Source: Arenimonas sp. SCN 70-307 (GTDB lineage: Bacteria > Pseudomonadota > Gammaproteobacteria > Xanthomonadales > Xanthomonadaceae). Taken from it: 64,000 nt of DNA. A program made the translations under genes and the position numbers. The notes under the pieces are model-generated. The model saw only the letters and a program-made list of their open reading frames with translations. It made no database searches and had not been told where the DNA came from. Position 1 is the stretch's first letter; each line of letters starts with the position of its first letter. The stretch is from the NCBI RefSeq assembly GCF_001724815.1, contig NZ_MEDO01000019.1, forward strand, positions 1-64,000, in the 5' to 3' direction. Below, piece after piece: positions 2,963-63,474 of this stretch.

Positions 2963-4012
2963 GTGAACGTACTGATCGTCGATGACCAGCCCTCGCAACG
3001 GACCATGTTCCGCCACTTGCTGGAGGACATCAGTCCCGAAGTTAAGGTCACCGACTTCGGTGACCCGGTGGAGGCCCTGCTGTGGTCGCAGCGCAGCTCG
3101 CCCGACCTGCTGCTGCTCGACTACCGCATGCCCAAGCTCGACGGGCTGGAGTTCGCCCGTCGCTTCCGCCGGCCGCTGTCGCACCGCGACGTGCCGATCA
3201 TCCTGATCACCGTGGTCGGCGACGAGCCGATCCGCAACGCCGCCCTCGAGGCCGGCGTCATCGATTTCCTGGTCAAGCCGGTGCGCCCGCGCGAACTGCG
3301 CTCGCGCTGCCGCAACCTGCTGGCCCTGCGCCAGCAGCAGCAGAACCTCAAGACCCGCGCCCACGAGCTCGAGCGCCAGCTGCTGGCGCGCATGCACGAG
3401 CTCGACGACCGCGAGCGCGAGCTGCTGCACCGCCTGGCCAAGGCCACCGCCATGCACGACGGCGGCCCGGTGGCCAGTTTCGAGCGCCTGGGCCGCTATG
3501 CCGGCCTGATCGCCGAGGCCCTGGGCCAGTCCGAGGACGAGGTGCGCACCATCGAGCTGGGCGCGCCGCTGCGCGACATCGGCAAGCTGGCCATCTCCGA
3601 CACCATCCTGCGCAAGCCCGGGCCGCTCACCGACGCCGAGATGGCGGAAGTGCGCCGCCATCCCGCGCTGGGCCACGAGCTGCTCTCGGGCAGCGGCAGC
3701 CGCTTCGTGCAGGTGGGCGCCGCCATCGCCCTGGGCCACCAGGAACGCTGGGACGGCAGCGGTTACCCGCGCGGCCTGGCCGGCGAGGACATCCCGCTGC
3801 CGGCGCGCATCGTCGCCGTGGCGGACGTGCTCGACGCCATGACCTCGCCGCGACCCTGGCGCCCGGCGCATCCCTTCGCGGCCGCCATCGATTTCATCCG
3901 CGAAGGTTCGGGCACGCTGTTCGACCCCGCCGTGGTCTCGGCGACGCTGGCCCGCCGCGAGCGCCTCGAGGAAGTCTTCCGCTTCGTGACCCCGGGGCAA
4001 GCCAGCGCCTGA
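2963..4012 (+). CDS. rpfG: RpfG-like response regulator with degenerate HD-GYP domain
   Basis: In Xanthomonas RpfG is phosphorylated by RpfC on DSF binding and degrades cyclic di-GMP. Here the receiver domain (residues 1-125) has the acidic pair D7/D8 and phosphoacceptor D53 in [13 protein letters not shown] helical linker (about 125-160) leads to an HD-GYP domain (about 165-349). Several usual metal ligands of that domain are altered: the early ExxxH is P169/F173, the HD pair is R204-D205 (APLRDIGK) and HHE is H259-Q260-E261. The HP histidine, the DGSGYP motif (264-269) and the late Asp (VAVADVLDA) remain. This suggests little or no phosphodiesterase activity. I chose GTG 2963 because GGGAG lies six bases upstream; an earlier in-frame GTG at 2942 lacks this. 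rpfC starts 34 bases downstream. Confidence 0.9.
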
Positions 4013-4046: not shown

Positions 4047-6176
4047 ATGATCCGCGCCTTCGCCAACCGCCCCGACAGCGAACATGGCCAGGCGCTGGTC
4101 CGCCTCGTCATCGCCGCGGTGCTGCTGGCCTACCTGGCCGGCCTGGCCTCGGGCAGCAACGCCGGCGCCGAGCTGCGACTGAGCGTGCTGATCCTGCTGG
4201 CCGAGACCCTGCTCGGCCTGGGCATCGTCATCGCCATCATCCTGCGCCCGGGCGTCTCGCACGGGCGGCGCGTGCTGGGCATGCTGGCCGACTACAGCAC
4301 GCTCGCGGCGATGATGATCCTCAAGGGCGAGGTGCTGGCGCCGCTCTACGTCATCATCCTTTGGGTGACCGTAGGCAACGGCCTGCGCTTCGGCACCACC
4401 TACCTGTTCGCGGCCATGGGCCTGGCGGTGGCCACCTTCCTGGCGGTGATCCTGTCCACGCCTTACTGGCAGGAGAATCCGTACATCGCCTGGGGCCTGC
4501 TGGTGGGCCTGGTGGCGATCCCGGCCTACCTGATCAGCCTGCTGCGCGACCTGCGCCGCGCCGGCGAGGAAGCGCGGCGCGCCAACGCCGCCAAGAGCCG
4601 CTTCCTGGCCAACATGAGCCACGAGTTCCGCTCGCCGCTCAACGGCATCATCGGCATGGCCGAGCTGCTCTCGGGCACGCGCCTGGCGCCCGAGCAGCGC
4701 GAGGCCGCCGACGTCATCCAGACCTCGGCGCAGACGCTGCTGCTGCTGGTCGAGGACGTGCTCGACATCTCGGCCATCGAGGCCGGCAAGCTCAAGCGCC
4801 AGGACAGCGAGTTCGCGCCGCGCGAGCTGGCCCGGCGCATCCGCACCATGCTCCAGCCGATGGCGGCCAACAAGAGCCTCGAGCTTTCGGTGGAGGTGCC
4901 GGAATCCATCCCGCAGCGCCTGCGCGGCGACGCCGGTCACCTGGGCCAGATCCTGCTCAACCTCACCCACAACGCCATCAAGTTCACCGAGGCCGGCAGC
5001 GTGCGGCTGACGTTCGAGCCACGCGCGCTGGAGGCGGGCAGGGCGGCACTGCGCTTCTCCGTGCGCGACACCGGCATCGGCGTGCCGGATTCGGCCAAGG
5101 CCACGCTGTTCCAGGCCTTCGAGCAGGTCGACAGCGGTCCGACGCGCCGTTTCGGCGGCACCGGCCTGGGCACGACCATCGCCAAGACGCTGACCGAACT
5201 GCTCGGCGGCAATATCGGCCTGGAGGACAACCCGGGTGGCGGAACGCATTTCTGGGTGGACCTGGAGTTCGAGGTGGTGGCCGGCAGCGAATCCGCCGCC
5301 GCGGCCCAGGACGAAGGCAAGGTCATCTCCTTCGACGATCCCTTCGTGCGCCATCGCGCGCGCGTGCGGCCGATGCGCGTGCTGGTGGCCGACGACCAGC
5401 CGGCCAACCGCCTCGTGCTGCAGCGCCTGCTCGAGCGCGCCGGCCACCAGCCGGTGTTCGCCGAGGACGGCGAGCAGGCGCTGGACCGCCTCGAGGCCGA
5501 AACGCTCGACGCGGCCATCGTCGACCTGCACATGCCGGGCGTGGACGGCCTGGAGGTGATCAAGCAGGCGCGCGTGATGCAGGCCGGCTCCACCCGCACG
5601 CCGATCGTGGTGCTCAGCGCCGACGCCACCGTGGACGCGGTGCGCGACGCCGAAGCCGCAGGCGCCTATACCTTCCTCACCAAACCCGTGGTGGCCGCGC
5701 GACTGCTCGACACCCTGGCCGAGATCGCCGGCGGCGCCGGCGGCGAGGCGAGCACGCCCCAGCGCAAGGACCAGCTGCCGACCCTGCGCACCGACGTGCT
5801 CGAGGAGCTGGCGGGCATGGGCCTGGGCACGCAGTTCCTGCGCGATTTCTCCGAGCAGTGCCTGCGCGACGCCAGCCGCTGCCTGGCCGAGGCCGAACGT
5901 TCGGCGGCGCAGGGGCGCTGGGACAGCCTGCGCGAGGCCGCGCATGCGCTCAAGGGCGTTTCCGAGAACCTGGGCGCGCAGGCGCTGGTGTCGCGCAGTA
6001 CGGAGCTCATGCGCGCCAGCGATGCGGTGCTGGCCAAGGAGTGGCGGCGCCTGGTGGGCAACATCGGTACCCAGCTCGAGGGCACGGCTGCGCAGGTGCG
6101 CAGCGAAGTGGCGCGTATCTCCGCGCGCCCGGTGCAAGGTGATTCCGGCCGGCCCACGGACAACGAGTCCGGCTGA
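4047..6176 (+). CDS. rpfC: RpfC-like hybrid sensor histidine kinase (DSF sensor)
   Basis: An inner-membrane hybrid kinase of 709 residues. Five or so hydrophobic segments fill residues 10-175 ([25 protein letters not shown] and so on), like the RpfC input region. Next come HisKA with the phospho-His in [14 protein letters not shown], and HATPase with an N box ([13 protein letters not shown]), DTGIGVPD and [13 protein letters not shown] receiver domain has Asp in [14 protein letters not shown]-terminal HPt domain has His in [15 protein letters not shown]. This is the domain order of Xanthomonas RpfC. In that genus unliganded RpfC also binds and restrains RpfF. It probably forms one transcript with rpfG, and faces rpfF tail to tail across about 50 bases. 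Xanthomonas rpfH, a membrane-protein gene between rpfG and rpfC in some strains, is absent. Confidence 0.93.
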
Positions 6177-6227
6177 GCCGCGTCGCGGGGGTGGCCGCCC
6201 CTTGCCTGGCGACCACCCCGTTTCGCG

Positions 6228-7121
6228 TCAGACCACCTGTCGCAGCGCGGCGGCGCCCGGAACACGGCGCTTCTGCGCCCGCACCAGCCGCTCCATGGTC
6301 TGCAGGCCGCGGTCGCCCAGTCGCATCGCGGCGTCCACCCAGGTGGTGGTGACGCGCATCAGCTCGTCCAGGCTCACCGGGTTGCAGGTCATGCGCACGG
6401 TGTTCATCGAGCGAAGGGCATTGCCCATGCGCTTGCGCCGGCGCACCAGTTCGCGGGCCGCCGAAAGGCCTTCGCCGCGCGGCACCAGGAAATCAACCAC
6501 GCCCATCCGGTGCAGTTCCTCGGCCGAATAGACGTTGCCGTCGAGCATCATGCGCTCGGCCTGGGCCGGGGTGACGCGGCGCGAGAGGAAGGTGTAGGCG
6601 CCCATGCCCGGGAACAGGTCGAACAGCACCTCCGGGAAGCCCATGCCGCTGCCTTCCTCGGCAATGATGGTGTGGCAGCACAGCGCGGCTTCGAAGCCGC
6701 CGCCCAGGGCCTCGCCCTGCACCACGGCGATCGAATGCACGCGGTCGTCGGCCAGCCGGGCGAAATGGAAGGCCACCGAAACGCAAAGCTGGGCATAAGC
6801 CAGCAGGCGGGCGCGGTCGCCGGTGCGGATCAGGCGCGAGAACAGCTCGAGGTCCCCGCCCAGGTTGAACACGTCGGAATGCGAGGCGAGCACCAGGTGG
6901 CGGACCTCGTTGCCCGGGTGGTTGGCGTCGTTGGCGATGCGGTTGGCGACCTGGCGCTGGCACTCGCGCAGGTCGACCAGCAGCTGCTCGCTGAAGCAGG
7001 GGCGGTAGGCTGGAGCAGGGTTGTGGTGCATGAAGCACCACTCGATGCCGGCTTCGGCTTCGGAGCGGTGGTCGACCAGGGTGAGGGCGGGCTCGCGGTT
7101 GATGCTTTCGACGACGGACAT
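6228..7121 (-). CDS. rpfF: DSF synthase, enoyl-CoA hydratase family
   Basis: A crotonase-fold enzyme that makes cis-2-unsaturated fatty acid signals (DSF) from acyl-ACP, with dehydratase and thioesterase activity. The 297 residues contain both catalytic glutamates of the RpfF family: E144 in GEALGGGFEAA and E164 in GMGFPEVLFDLFPGMG. They are twenty residues apart, as in Xanthomonas RpfF. I chose ATG 7121 (MSVVESINREP) because GGAGA precedes it at good spacing; an upstream in-frame TTG at 7139 is less likely. It follows rpfB on the minus strand and converges on rpfC, the same geometry as in Xanthomonas. It could only be confused with an ordinary enoyl-CoA hydratase, but neighbours and motifs argue for RpfF. 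Confidence 0.94.
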   Translation of the reverse strand: MSVVESINREPALTLVDHRSEAEAGIEWCFMHHNPAPAYRPCFSEQLLVDLRECQRQVANRIANDANHPGNEVRHLVLASHSDVFNLGGDLELFSRLIRTGDRARLLAYAQLCVSVAFHFARLADDRVHSIAVVQGEALGGGFEAALCCHTIIAEEGSGMGFPEVLFDLFPGMGAYTFLSRRVTPAQAERMMLDGNVYSAEELHRMGVVDFLVPRGEGLSAARELVRRRKRMGNALRSMNTVRMTCNPVSLDELMRVTTTWVDAAMRLGDRGLQTMERLVRAQKRRVPGAAALRQVV

Positions 7122-7220
7122 GGCGGTTTCTCCAGGCAAGGGGGTGGTGCCCTACACGTTCCTTCGGCGGAGCGCAAGGGGGCAGGGGCAGTCTACACCC
7201 GGGCCAACGCCCAAATGCCA

Positions 7221-7266: not shown

Positions 7267-8949
7267 TCAGGCCGGGGTCTTGGGGGCGTCGCGCAGCTCG
7301 CGGCGCAGGATCTTCCCGACGTTGGACTTGGGCAGCTCGGTGCGGAACTCGACGTAGCGCGGGTGCTTGTAGCCGGTGAGGTTTTCCTTGCAGAAAGCCT
7401 TGACCTGCTCGGCCGTGAGCGCCGGGTCCTTCTTGACGATGACCACCTTCACCGCCTCGCCGGACTTCTCGTCGGGCACGCCGACCGCGGCGACCTCGAG
7501 CACGCCGGGCATCAGCGCGATCACGTCCTCGACCTCGTTCGGGTACACGTTGAAGCCCGAGACCAGGATCATGTCCTTCTTGCGGTCGACGATGTAGAAG
7601 AAACCCTTCTCGTCCATCTTGGCCATGTCGCCGGTGTGCAGCCAGCCGTCGGCGTCGATGACCTTGGCGGTTTCTTCCGGGCGCTGCCAGTAGCCGGCCA
7701 TCACCTGCGGACCTCGGATGCACAGCTCGCCGACCTCGCCGACCGGCAGCATGCGGCCTTCGTCGTCCTTGATGCAGGCGTCGGTGGACGGGATCGGCAG
7801 GCCGATCGAGCCGTTGTACTCGGGCAGGTCCATCGGGTTGATGCAGGCCGCCGGCGAGGTCTCGGTCAGGCCGTAGGCTTCGACCAGGGTGATGCCGGTG
7901 GCCTTCTGCCAGCGCTCGGCCACCGCGCGCTGCACGGCCATGCCGCCGCCGAGGGTGAGGTGCAGGCGCGAGAAGTCGATCTTCTCGAAGCCCGGGGTGT
8001 TGAGCAGGCCGTTGAAGAGCGTGTTCACGCCGGTGATGGCGGTGAACGGGATCTTCTGCAGCTCGGCCACGAAACCCTTCATGTCGCGCGGGTTGGTGAT
8101 CAGGTGGTTGAGGCCGCCGAACTTCATGAAGACCAGGCAGTTCGCCGTCAGCGCGAAGATGTGGTAGAGCGGCAGCGCGGTGATGATCACTTCCTTGCCC
8201 ATGCTGGCGTTCGCACCCAGCCAGGCCGAGGACTGCTGCATGTTCGCCACCAGGTTGCGGTGCGTGAGCATCGCGCCCTTGGCCACGCCGGTGGTGCCGC
8301 CGGTGTACTGCAGGAAGGCGATGTCCTCGGGGCGGATGTCGATGGCAGGCAGGGTCTTGCCGGCGCCGCGGGCGAGGGCGTCGTTGAAGCGCAGGTGGCC
8401 GGGCAGGTCGTACTCGGGCACCTGCTTCTTGACGTGGCGCAGCACGAAGTTGATCAGCGAGCCCTTGGGGAAGCCCAGCATGTCGCCCACGCCGGTGACG
8501 ATGACCTGCTTGATCGGCGTATCGCCGACGACTTCCTGCACCACGTGCGCGAAGTTCTCCAGCACCACGATGGCGCTGGCGCCGGAATCCACCAGCTGGT
8601 GCTTGAGCTCGCGGGCGGTGTACATCGGGTTGGTGTTGACCACCGTGAGCCCGGCGCGCAGCACGCCGAAGATGGCAACCGGGTACTGCAGGATGTTGGG
8701 CATCATCAGGGCGACGCGGTCGCCCTTCTTGAGCTTGAGCTCGTGCAGCAGGTAGTTTGCGAACTGGGTGCTGAGGCGGTCGACCTGGTCGTAGGTCAGC
8801 TGCTTGCCGAAATTGGCGAAGGCCGGGTTGTCGCGGTAGGTGCGGCAGGACTCCTCGAGCACTGAGACGATGGACGGGTACTGCCCGAGGTCGATCTCGG
8901 GACCGATGCCCTTCGGATAATTCGCCAGCCAAGGACGTTCAAAACCCAT
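7267..8949 (-). CDS. rpfB: RpfB-like long-chain fatty acid--CoA ligase (FadD family)
   Basis: Activates free fatty acids to acyl-CoA using ATP. In Xanthomonas RpfB is a FadD-type ligase needed for DSF turnover and fatty acid uptake. The 560 residues equal the E. coli FadD length. The AMP-binding signature [16 protein letters not shown] is near residue 215, the GLTETSP motif near 360, and the C-terminal [24 protein letters not shown] segment carries the adenylate-binding Asp and hinge. ATG 8949 ([14 protein letters not shown]) is preceded by GGGAG; longer in-frame extensions have no homology. It lies upstream of rpfF on the same strand and is divergent from a small lipoprotein gene. Confidence 0.93.
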
Positions 8950-9082
8950 GCGTTCACTCCCGAAAATCGAATCCAGCCGACCCGCCGGGGCGCATGGGGC
9001 TTGCGCCGCGCGGAATTTGAGTATTCGCTCGATTGGAGCATACCCCTCGGGGCAGGGCAAGGCAGAGCGGACCGGCTTTCGC

Positions 9083-9496
9083 ATGGCTTTCACGGCCGCG
9101 GTCGTGCTGGCGTTGGCGCTGGCCGCCGGCTGCGCGCGCACCCCGCCCGAGCAAGCCCTGCGCGAGGCGGTGGCGGCCATGGCCGAGGCGGCCGAGGCAC
9201 GCGACAGCGAGGCCCTGGCCAGCCACCTCGCCGACGACTTCGCCGGCCCGGACGGCATGGACCGCGAGCGCCTGCGTCGCTACCTGGCGGTGATCTGGCT
9301 GCGCAACCGCGAGGTCGGGGTCACGCTGGGCCCGCTGGACGTCGAGCTGATGGGCGACCGGGCCAAGGTCGGATTCACCGCCGCCGCCCGCGGCGGCGAG
9401 GGCCTTTTTCCCGACAGCGCCCGCGTCTACCAGGTCGAGACCGGCTGGCGGCTCGAGGGCGGCGAGTGGAAGCTCATCTCCGCCGACTGGCGCTGA
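9083..9496 (+). CDS. Small lipoprotein with NTF2-like fold
   Basis: A product of 137 residues. It starts [22 protein letters not shown], a lipoprotein signal with Cys at about residue 17; the residue at -3 is Ala rather than the favoured Leu. The mature part ([31 protein letters not shown], then [25 protein letters not shown]) looks like a nuclear-transport-factor-2-type fold of the kind in SnoaL/DUF4440 proteins. Its role is unknown. It sits in the rpf region, divergent from rpfB and convergent with acnA. ATG 9083 is the only start that places the signal peptide properly. Confidence 0.7.
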
Positions 9497-59634: not shown

Positions 59635-60596
<962 letters not shown>

Positions 60597-60672
60597 GTTC
60601 GGTTCTCCTTCACGCCGCGCAGGACCGGAGGGGGTGGCATACTGCCTCCAGTGGGGGCCAGCGGGGGATCGG

Positions 60673-63474
60673 ATGCGCCTGGTCGATGCGTTCCAATCGT
60701 CCACCAGCGTGGTCGCGGTGATGCGTGCCAGCGACGGGGTCTTCCTCGGCGTCAACCCTGCGTTCGAGCGTAGCACCGGCTACCGTCGCGACCAGGTGAC
60801 AGGCCGCTTGCCGGTGGAGATCGGGCTGTGGCCCGACCCGGCCTTCCGCTCGCAGATCTGGAGCCTGCTGCGCGGCGACCATCGCGCGGTGGCGCTGCCG
60901 ATGCACCTGCGCCACGCCGACGGCCGCATCCTGCCGGGGCACCTGAATGTCGAATTCGCCACCGACGCCGACGGCGAAACGGTGGTGTTCTGCCTGCTGC
61001 ACCTGGCCACCGAACCGGCCGCGCCCGGGGAAACGGCGCCGTCGGCGCCGCCGGGCTTCTACCGCGCGCTCTACCTCGCCGCCTCCGAGGGCATCTACCG
61101 CAGCTTGCCGGGCGGCGGTTTCCTGGACGTGAACCCGGCGATGGCGCGCATCCTGGGCTACGACTCGCCCGCGCAGCTGCTGCAGGAAGTGGCCCGCGAA
61201 GCATCGAGCCTTTACGTCGACCCGGAGTCGGCCACCCATTTCCATACCCGCCTGCAGGCCGGCGAGCGGCTCGAGCGCGTCCGCGCCCGCGTGCGCCGGC
61301 GCGACGGCGGGATCATCTGGGTCAGCGAGAATGCCCGCGGCATCTTCGACGAGCAGGGCAAGGTGCTGTTCTACGAAGGCTCGCTGGTCGACATCACCGC
61401 CCAGGTCGAGGCCGAGGAGGCGCTGCGGCAATCGCGCACGCTCTACCAGGTGCTGGTGGAAAACAGCCGCGACGGCGTCTTCCTCATCCAGCGCGGCAAG
61501 GTCGCGTTCGCCAACCAGGCCCTGGCCAGCATCCTCGGCTACGAGGTGCCGGAGCTGACCGGCATGGACTACATGTCGCTCGTCGACCCCGCCGACATCG
61601 AGGCGCAGATGGCGCGCCGGGCGGCCCGCGAGGCGGGCTCGCCCGCGCCGCAGGTGTACGAGGTGCGGCTGCGCCGGCGCGACGGCCGGGTGATCCTGTG
61701 CGAGGTGCGCGCCGACGCCGTGCAGTACGAAGGCGACATCGCCTCCACCGGCACCCTGCGCGACGTCACCGAGGAGCGCGCCCGCCAGCGCGCCATCGAG
61801 GACGCCGAGCGGCGCTACCGCACCCTGGTCGAACACAGCCAGGTCGGCGTGTTCATCATGGACGGCGACCGCTACACCTATGCCAACACCGCCTTCACCC
61901 AGATGCTGGGCCTGGGCGAGGGCGAACTGGTGGGCCGCGGGTACCGCGAGATCATGGCGCCCGAGGCGGTGCCGGCCTCGGAGCAGCGCGACCGCGACCG
62001 CGCCGCCGGGCGGCCGGTGCCCTCGGATTTCGAAACCTGCCTGCTGCACCGCGACGGGCGGCGGGTGTTCGTGCGGGTGAGCATCGGGCCGGTCGAGCTC
62101 GACGGGGTCGAGCACCTCACCGGCACGGTGCTCGACGTCACGCGCCAGCGCGAGGCCGAGTCGCGGCTGCGCTTCCACGCCACCCACGACCCGCTCACCG
62201 GCTTGCCCAACCGCATGCTGTTCAACCAGAAGCTGGCCGGCGCGATGCTGGCGGCCGGGCGCGCGGGCGGGCAGCCCTATGCCGTGCTCTTCCTCGACCT
62301 CGACGGCTTCAAGTGGGTCAACGACAGCCTCGGCCACGGCGCCGGCGACGGCCTGCTGGTGCAGATCGCCCGGCGCCTTGAGGACAGCCTGCTCCAGGAC
62401 GTGCTGATCGCCCGCTACGGCGGCGACGAGTTCACGCTGCTGCCCGAAGGGCCCTGCGACGAGGCGCGGGCCGCCGCCATCGCGCGCCAGGTGATCGCGC
62501 TGTTCGAGCAGCCTTTCGATGCCGGCGGCCAGCAGGTGTTTTCCTCGGCCAGCCTGGGCATCGTGCTCGGGCGACCCGACTACGAGTCGCCCGAACAGGT
62601 GCTGCGGGACGCCGACACGGCGATGTACCGGGCCAAGTCGGCCGGCAAGTCGGGTTTCGTGGTGTTCGACGAAGGCATGCACCAGCAGGCCCTGAGCCGC
62701 CTGCAGCTCGAGACCGACCTGCGCCTGGCCTTCGAACGCGCCGAGTTCCGCGTGCACTACCAGCCCATCATCGAACTGGCCAGCGGCCGCCTGGTCGGCG
62801 CCGAAGCGCTGGTGCGCTGGCTGCACCCGCGCCGGGGCCTGCTGGCGCCGGCTGAATTCCTGCCGCTGGCCGAAGAAAGCGGCCTGATCACCCAGCTCGA
62901 CGCCTGGGTGCTGGGCGAGGCCTGCGCCCAGCTCGGGCAGTGGCGGCAGGTGGCGCCGGGGCTGTCGATGAACGTCAACGTGGACGAGCGCCAGATGGTG
63001 GCGCCCGGCCTGGTCGACGAAGTGCTGGCGCTGCTTCACCGGCACCAGCTGCCCGCCGACAGCCTGCGGCTCGAGGTCACCGAAACGGCCTTCCGCTCCG
63101 GCCGCGGCGAGGCCGAGCGGCACCTGCTTTCGCTCAAGGCGATTGGCGTCGGCCTGGTGGTGGACGACTTCGGCACCGGCTATTCCTCGCTCGAATCGTT
63201 CGCGTCCTCGCCCTTCGATGCGCTCAAGATGGACCAGGTGTTCATCCGCGACATCGAAACCAACCCGCGCCACCGCGCCATCGTGCGCACCATCAACGGC
63301 TTCGCCGGCGAGCTGGGCCTGGCCCTGACCGCCGAAGGCATCGAAACCGAGGGCCAGCGTGAGATGCTGCGCGCCATCGGCTGCCAGTTCGGGCAGGGCT
63401 TCCTGTTCTCGCGGGCGCTGCCGCCCGAGCAATTCGAGCAAATGCTCTCGGCCGGGGCGGGCATCGTCGGATGA
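60673..63474 (+). CDS. PAS-GGDEF-EAL cyclic di-GMP protein
   Basis: A protein of 933 residues with both cyclic di-GMP output domains. It has no membrane segment, so it is cytoplasmic. Four PAS modules occupy about residues 5-500 (VDAFQSSTSVVAVMRASDGVFLGVNPAFERSTGY; FYRALYLAASEGIYRSL; YQVLVENSRDGVFLIQRGKVAFANQAL; YRTLVEHSQVGVFIMDGDRYTYANTAF). GGDEF is intact (LIARYGGDEFTLLP, near 580) but no RxxD product-inhibition site stands just before it. EAL is intact (VGAEALVRWLHPRRG near 709; VDDFGTGYSSLE). Both activities are possible. ATG 60673 (MRLVDAFQ) follows GGGGGA; an earlier frame opening overlaps msrP. Confidence 0.93.
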   Translation: MRLVDAFQSSTSVVAVMRASDGVFLGVNPAFERSTGYRRDQVTGRLPVEIGLWPDPAFRSQIWSLLRGDHRAVALPMHLRHADGRILPGHLNVEFATDADGETVVFCLLHLATEPAAPGETAPSAPPGFYRALYLAASEGIYRSLPGGGFLDVNPAMARILGYDSPAQLLQEVAREASSLYVDPESATHFHTRLQAGERLERVRARVRRRDGGIIWVSENARGIFDEQGKVLFYEGSLVDITAQVEAEEALRQSRTLYQVLVENSRDGVFLIQRGKVAFANQALASILGYEVPELTGMDYMSLVDPADIEAQMARRAAREAGSPAPQVYEVRLRRRDGRVILCEVRADAVQYEGDIASTGTLRDVTEERARQRAIEDAERRYRTLVEHSQVGVFIMDGDRYTYANTAFTQMLGLGEGELVGRGYREIMAPEAVPASEQRDRDRAAGRPVPSDFETCLLHRDGRRVFVRVSIGPVELDGVEHLTGTVLDVTRQREAESRLRFHATHDPLTGLPNRMLFNQKLAGAMLAAGRAGGQPYAVLFLDLDGFKWVNDSLGHGAGDGLLVQIARRLEDSLLQDVLIARYGGDEFTLLPEGPCDEARAAAIARQVIALFEQPFDAGGQQVFSSASLGIVLGRPDYESPEQVLRDADTAMYRAKSAGKSGFVVFDEGMHQQALSRLQLETDLRLAFERAEFRVHYQPIIELASGRLVGAEALVRWLHPRRGLLAPAEFLPLAEESGLITQLDAWVLGEACAQLGQWRQVAPGLSMNVNVDERQMVAPGLVDEVLALLHRHQLPADSLRLEVTETAFRSGRGEAERHLLSLKAIGVGLVVDDFGTGYSSLESFASSPFDALKMDQVFIRDIETNPRHRAIVRTINGFAGELGLALTAEGIETEGQREMLRAIGCQFGQGFLFSRALPPEQFEQMLSAGAGIVG

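Follow-up and report, generated by a model that had tools for sequence, protein, structure and literature searches.

RpfG with a degenerate HD-GYP active site and a near-invariant receiver in a clade of Arenimonas

Introduction

RpfG, a response regulator that joins a receiver (REC) to an HD-GYP domain, has been credited with different shares of enzymatic and contact-based signalling, with work on Xanthomonas pointing to c-di-GMP breakdown and work on Lysobacter to an adaptor role, as set out in one report (PMC9758175). The RpfG of Lysobacter enzymogenes has this architecture and acts in the DSF pathway; according to the published accounts it binds the cyclase WspR with a Kd of 0.15 µM (0.2 µM for the H190A variant) and inhibits it independently of its activity (PMC9758175), and it controls HSAF through HtsH proteins without any need for phosphodiesterase activity (PMC8463545). 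That protein retains the HD dyad and is enzymatically active, whereas in the RpfG described here the dyad is naturally lost. A described case of an inactive variant is PA2572 from Pseudomonas aeruginosa, a YN-GYP protein with a receiver, for which no detectable activity and a contact between its receiver and PA2573 have been reported (PMC3411652). Judged by its description, PA2572 resembles the protein studied here in its altered HD-GYP domain and in the receiver-mediated contact that we predict, but it is not encoded by an rpf gene and its partner is an orphan chemotaxis sensor.

The columns of the HD-GYP active site are taken here from PmGH from Persephonella marina (4mcw), a solved HD-GYP protein with eight metal ligands and a GAF domain instead of REC. 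Xanthomonas campestris RpfG, which is described as enzymatically active and as binding GGDEF proteins, shares the GYP motif and has Gly and Phe at the columns of two of these ligands, E185 and H189 (PMC4159591). Here we compare these proteins with the RpfG encoded in a 64,000-nucleotide stretch of Arenimonas sp. SCN 70-307 (hereafter the window), in which Arg204 and Gln260 set the active site apart from that of the X. campestris enzyme.

Results

The rpf locus and the domain layout of RpfG

The window encodes RpfG between lysS and rpfC in the order prfB-lysS-rpfG-rpfC on the forward strand, followed by rpfF, rpfB and acnA on the opposite strand (prfB, lysS, rpfB and acnA being names that we assume for these genes). 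Related loci show the same order, which bears out the first-pass annotation in its view that the DSF locus is otherwise canonical. The features are as follows, with the core sequences defined below.

2963..4012, + strand: rpfG, encoding REC, linker and degenerate HD-GYP domain; GTG start, 349 amino acids
2963..3325, + strand: REC domain, residues 1–121; Asp53 retained
3326..3397, + strand: linker, residues 122–145, predicted to be helical; varies solely at residue 131 across the 14 core sequences
3398..3967, + strand: HD-GYP domain, residues 146–335; 111 of 190 positions variable in the 14 core sequences
3464..3478, + strand: Gly168 and Ser172, at the PmGH E185 and H189 columns; variable across the sampled RpfG sequences
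3572..3577, + strand: Arg204-Asp205, replacing the HD dyad
3737..3745, + strand: His259-Gln260-Glu261, replacing HHE
3761..3769, + strand: Gly267-Tyr268-Pro269, the GYP motif; Tyr268 in 112 of 112 sequences
4047..6176, + strand: rpfC, hybrid sensor kinase; kinase His192, receiver Asp493 and HPt His633 all intact
6228..7139, − strand: rpfF, DSF synthase homologue; Glu150 and Glu170, which we take to be the catalytic glutamates, are present
7267..9258, − strand: rpfB-type acyl-CoA ligase, presumably so, as named from its position in the locus

The assignment as RpfG agrees with the REC and HD-GYP architecture (Pfam Response_reg at residues 3–115 and HD_5 at residues 163–324), with the phospho-acceptor Asp53, and with a tree that places the protein among the RpfG sequences of other Arenimonas and Xanthomonadaceae.

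RpfG matches were found in 188 of 247 family genomes, and 99 of the 188 were taken, including 27 lower-scoring ones, which makes the sample non-random. To these were added six further genus members, five sequences from other families of the order and two outgroups (Dyella and Pseudorhodoferax), giving 112 sequences after the removal of eight duplicate loci. The nearest named relatives of the window's genome place it in Arenimonas. The core is the 14-sequence Arenimonas clade of the RpfG tree. Within the genus, rpfG and rpfF co-occur in the same 18 of 27 genomes, some of which are incomplete.

Active-site residues

Residue columns were set by alignment to PmGH, which the window RpfG matches at E 7.8e-41. 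Arg204 and Asp205 stand at H221 and D222, and Gln260 stands at H277, in agreement with the annotation made at first pass, which had read the HD pair as Arg204-Asp205 and the HHE motif as His259-Gln260-Glu261 and had noted that Asp53 and the GYP motif remain. Also kept are Lys208 (K225), His233 (H250), His259 (H276) and Asp288 (D305), as well as Asp166 and Asp291. Of the features of an HD-GYP phosphodiesterase, the GYP motif at 267–269 and the loop residue Ile277 are thus present, and the His-Asp dyad and the HHE ahead of DGxGYP are missing; an absent HD dyad with a retained receiver is the pattern of a non-catalytic HD-GYP adaptor of the PA2572 kind.

Four of the eight PmGH ligands differ in the window RpfG, but they do not weigh equally. 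The two early ligands had been placed at Pro169 and Phe173, one residue off; the correct columns hold Gly168 and Ser172. Residue 168 is Gly in 92 of the 112 sequences and residue 172 is His in just 19, and since the X. campestris enzyme likewise has neither ligand, these two losses say little. Gln260 is found in 18 of the 112 sequences, nine of them among the 83 main-clade sequences and with the HD dyad intact, and judging from this spread it may be tolerated. The same HQE motif, together with Asn172 and an intact HD dyad, occurs in all seven sampled species of one genus (g48; L074, L075, L076, L081, L087, L123 and L145), which are well suited to showing whether an enzyme with HQE has activity. 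The predicted degeneracy rests on Arg204, together with Gln260, rather than on four lost ligands, and Arg204 is the telling change. Hydrolysis is reported to be almost abolished in the H190A variant of L. enzymogenes RpfG (PMC8463545), whose HD-to-GYP spacing (190 to 253) equals that in the window protein (204 to 267), and H221A and H277A are reported to nearly abolish the activity of PmGH (PMC4159591).

Turnover of c-di-GMP is still encoded elsewhere in the genome, where we found 40 GGDEF matches, 18 EAL matches and two further HD-GYP proteins, of which one keeps both HD and HHE. A second HD-GYP protein (G000:C14:86466-86936; L162) has no HD dyad (Leu-Asp, judged by eye) and keeps HHE and GYP. 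The window itself contains, at 60589–63471, a frame of 961 codons that encodes PAS, GGDEF and EAL domains and in which the GGDEF and EAL motifs are intact.

Distribution of the active-site changes

The HD histidine is lost in eight of the 112 sequences, which parsimony explains by five changes, or in seven of 109 by four changes if the two outgroups and G041 are left out. The G041 protein is probably not an orthologue, as RpfG was the sole match at its locus among nine query proteins from the rpf region. These seven losses fall into an RD group (the window, A. caeni and A. donghaensis; G021 and G016, L035 and L036), an RG group (G002 and G010) and the single sequences G068 (ND) and G058 (YD), and the loss is absent from all 83 sampled main-clade sequences. 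Both A. caeni and A. donghaensis also share Gln260 with the window, and one of them encodes Arg204 by a different synonymous codon. A single origin of Arg204, with RD and RG as one clade, was rejected (p-AU 0.003), and His204 has changed to Arg twice independently in core Arenimonas. The alignment that had been proposed for deciding whether the loss is clade-wide therefore gives an intermediate answer, with neither a single lineage nor the whole clade affected but two independent losses within 14 species.

Three sisters of the RD clade (G011, G019 and G022) keep His204 and already have Gln260 and Ser172, so the erosion of the site was probably stepwise. We scored such lesions at nine positions whose alanine mutants lost activity or had it strongly reduced in PmGH. 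At least one change was found in 12 of the 14 core sequences, the exceptions being G026 and G023. Leaving position 260 aside, nine of 14 core sequences carry a lesion against none of 83 in the main clade (Fisher p 1e-9, a value that ignores kinship and hence cannot be read as a probability). In two of these nine the sole lesion is D291E, a mild change, and some core members other than the RD clade are altered at Asp205, His233 or Asp288. Among the 15 other sequences outside the main clade, 11 have changes, including those of the remaining four genus members (D166E, K208N). Erosion as predicted from these residues is not unique to the core, and it is the main clade that is the uniform group. 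Separately, rpfG of G009 (L033:293-1315) contains an internal TAA stop and sits on a long branch of the tree.

Receiver conservation and selection on the HD-GYP domain

The receiver is identical at the amino-acid level in 10 of the 14 core sequences, the window counted, and 97–99% identical in the other four, while the HD-GYP domains of the other core species are 63–89% identical to that of the window. This freeze is limited to the 14-species core. It does not extend to the remaining four members of the genus, whose receivers are 57–83% identical to that of the window and 57–90% to one another. At equal lysS divergence (0.08–0.12), the receiver differs by 0.006 in 48 core pairs and by 0.115 in 30 main-clade pairs, and for the HD-GYP domain of the same pairs the values are 0.284 and 0.150. 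The codon model gave omega values of 0.0054 for receiver plus linker, 0.071 for HD-GYP and 0.046 for lysS in the 14 core species, and of 0.0424, 0.054 and 0.073, respectively, in 14 selected main-clade species; the receiver gap between the groups is thus about eightfold, and the HD-GYP gap, large in the pairwise comparison, is modest in the model. Among sites with a main-clade conservation of 98% or more, 24 of 60 in HD-GYP (146–345) and five of 59 in receiver plus linker are changed in some or all core sequences.

As a control we used a regulator that we take to be of the OmpR type (best match, 12 of these genomes), with a divergence of 0.058 in its receiver and 0.120 in its output domain; the receiver of RpfC diverges by 0.128 in eight type-A species. 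Set against these two, the RpfG receiver is unusually conserved. It is equally frozen in G026 and G023, whose active sites are intact, and lost catalysis is therefore not what brought the freeze about.

Other origins of the pattern were considered and set aside. Gene conversion of the receiver is unlikely, with a synonymous divergence of 0.29 that is close to the 0.33 of lysS in the same 49 pairs and with 83 of 121 codons variable, although the value of 0.47 for HD-GYP in these pairs counts against this argument. The idea of an antisense gene freezing the receiver met partial counter-evidence in the wobble-aligned antisense frame, which has one or two stops within residues 1–145 in 11 of 11 species; a 110-codon antisense ORF at 3121–3453 does not extend over the whole of the frozen region. 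A signature in the linker confined to Arenimonas was rejected, as several outgroups also differ there from the main clade.

In the HD-GYP domain of the RD clade, omega is 0.103 against 0.062 elsewhere (LRT 5.36 with one degree of freedom), and omega = 1 is rejected (LRT 124.7); for the RG clade the values are 0.078 and 0.070 (LRT 0.18), again with omega = 1 rejected (LRT 88.1). Extra relaxation is modest in the RD clade and absent in the RG clade, and the rejection of omega = 1 in both indicates a domain that is kept rather than freely decaying. All 14 core sequences have Tyr268, Ala292 and Arg297 and show no change at those GYP-loop positions that were checked, and two further columns that contact c-di-GMP in PmGH hold Lys or Arg (residue 300) and Leu or Met (residue 293). 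As the domain differs more among core than among main-clade species, no broad conserved contact surface is apparent besides the GYP loop.

The rpfC-rpfF pair of Arenimonas occurs in two types that are 49–55% identical (L037, L038, L039, L043 and L045 versus window 4047-7139), and their presence beneath a near-constant rpfG receiver suggests that the cassette may have been exchanged. A case with two rpfC-rpfF types has been described in S. maltophilia (PMC4517397). In G002 (L046:3009-7359) there is a third pair, which is highly divergent (about 30% and 37%) and is adjoined by a beta-ketoacyl synthase gene (Pfam). The L039 record is titled Rhizobium sp. (MAG) and looks like Arenimonas by its rpfG (85%) and lysS (90%) identities.

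Discussion

Our preferred reading, held tentatively and at close to even chances, is that RpfG of the core type is a pseudo-phosphodiesterase that has been retained as an adaptor switched by phosphorylation. DSF made by RpfF would be sensed by RpfC and phosphate passed to Asp53 of the RpfG receiver, as the intact residues of these proteins suggest. With Arg for the HD histidine and Gln for the second histidine of HHE, the HD-GYP domain would be unable to build a working metal centre, yet it remains under selection and retains the GYP loop and the positions that contact c-di-GMP. Output may then come from a phosphorylation-dependent contact of receiver, linker and GYP loop with, for example, GGDEF proteins or hybrid kinases, and catalysis may have been lost repeatedly in Arenimonas under selection that keeps the contact role and not hydrolysis. 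From the observed residues, phylogeny, selection and context we infer that the protein hydrolyses c-di-GMP little if at all and that its output runs through contact.

The first-pass annotation had likewise proposed protein contact instead of c-di-GMP breakdown, and with the Lysobacter precedent this is the best-supported reading; what did not stand is the argument from four missing ligands. Nor need the contact run through GYP, as had been implied, since the strong conservation lies in receiver and linker and not in the HD-GYP surface. Several points speak against an adaptor: a dependence of DSF output on the activity of RpfG is reported for X. campestris and S. rhizophila (PMC9758175), the HD-GYP domain shows no broad conserved surface apart from the GYP loop, the receiver freeze rests on one clade and is shared by intact-site species, the extra relaxation is modest in one loss clade and absent in the other, and Gln260 may be tolerated.

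The nearest rival is a non-hydrolytic c-di-GMP receptor, in which the pocket persists without the metal site and binding of the nucleotide, perhaps with Arg204 replacing the charge of the metal, switches contacts. The contact residues kept throughout the core would fit this, as would the end of both histidine losses at Arg and the report that degenerate EAL proteins act as receptors (PMC10333796). The same residues may equally support the GYP fold, however, His to Arg is an easy change of which two instances prove little, and a phosphate of c-di-GMP is described as contacting iron in PmGH (PMC4159591), so that affinity may drop without metal; we consider this role unlikely.

We regard it as rather improbable that the protein is still an active phosphodiesterase whose metal centre is reduced or altered. 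The RD clade retains Asp205, Lys208, His233, His259, Asp288, Asp291 and Asp166, proteins with Gln260 and an intact HD dyad are common, and RpfG is reported to function already without the E185 and H189 ligands (PMC4159591). Against this stand the near-complete loss of activity on removal of the HD histidine in both L. enzymogenes RpfG (PMC8463545) and PmGH (PMC4159591), and the core species altered at further catalytic residues.

Less probable still is that the receiver alone matters, whether as a sink for phosphate or as a partner in cross-talk with several kinases, with an unused HD-GYP domain drifting to loss. A near-invariant receiver and linker beside a domain variable at more than half its positions, and the somewhat raised omega of the RD clade, would agree with this. 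But all 14 core sequences have the HD-GYP domain, with omega far below 1 and invariant GYP-loop positions, and a search of the 27 genus genomes (E 1e-20) gave no receiver-only match above 44% identity and no receiver-only RpfG. A sequencing or assembly error, which the earlier annotation had named as grounds for refutation, is practically ruled out by the recurrence of both residues in two other assembled species, one with its own Arg204 codon.

Since catalysis-independent function is already established in Lysobacter, the core RpfG would be a natural and recurrent variant of a known mode. In the accessible parts of the literature on RpfG and degenerate HD-GYP proteins we found no prior report of this active-site loss, and a literature search gave no paper on HQE in connection with HD-GYP.

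A near-frozen receiver beside a changing output domain raises the question of what the receiver binds. One possible though doubtful answer is that the DSF pathway of core Arenimonas has shed its second-messenger chemistry, leaving RpfG as a switch that works by contact or by reading c-di-GMP, with the receiver locked because several partners depend on RpfG; the active site would hence have been lost more than once, and the rpfC-rpfF cassette exchanged, beneath a nearly unchanged receiver. The core clade in any case amounts to a natural experiment, in which catalytic residues were removed repeatedly alongside two closely related species whose sites are intact, and it makes the question of enzyme versus contact testable with purified proteins and gene deletions.
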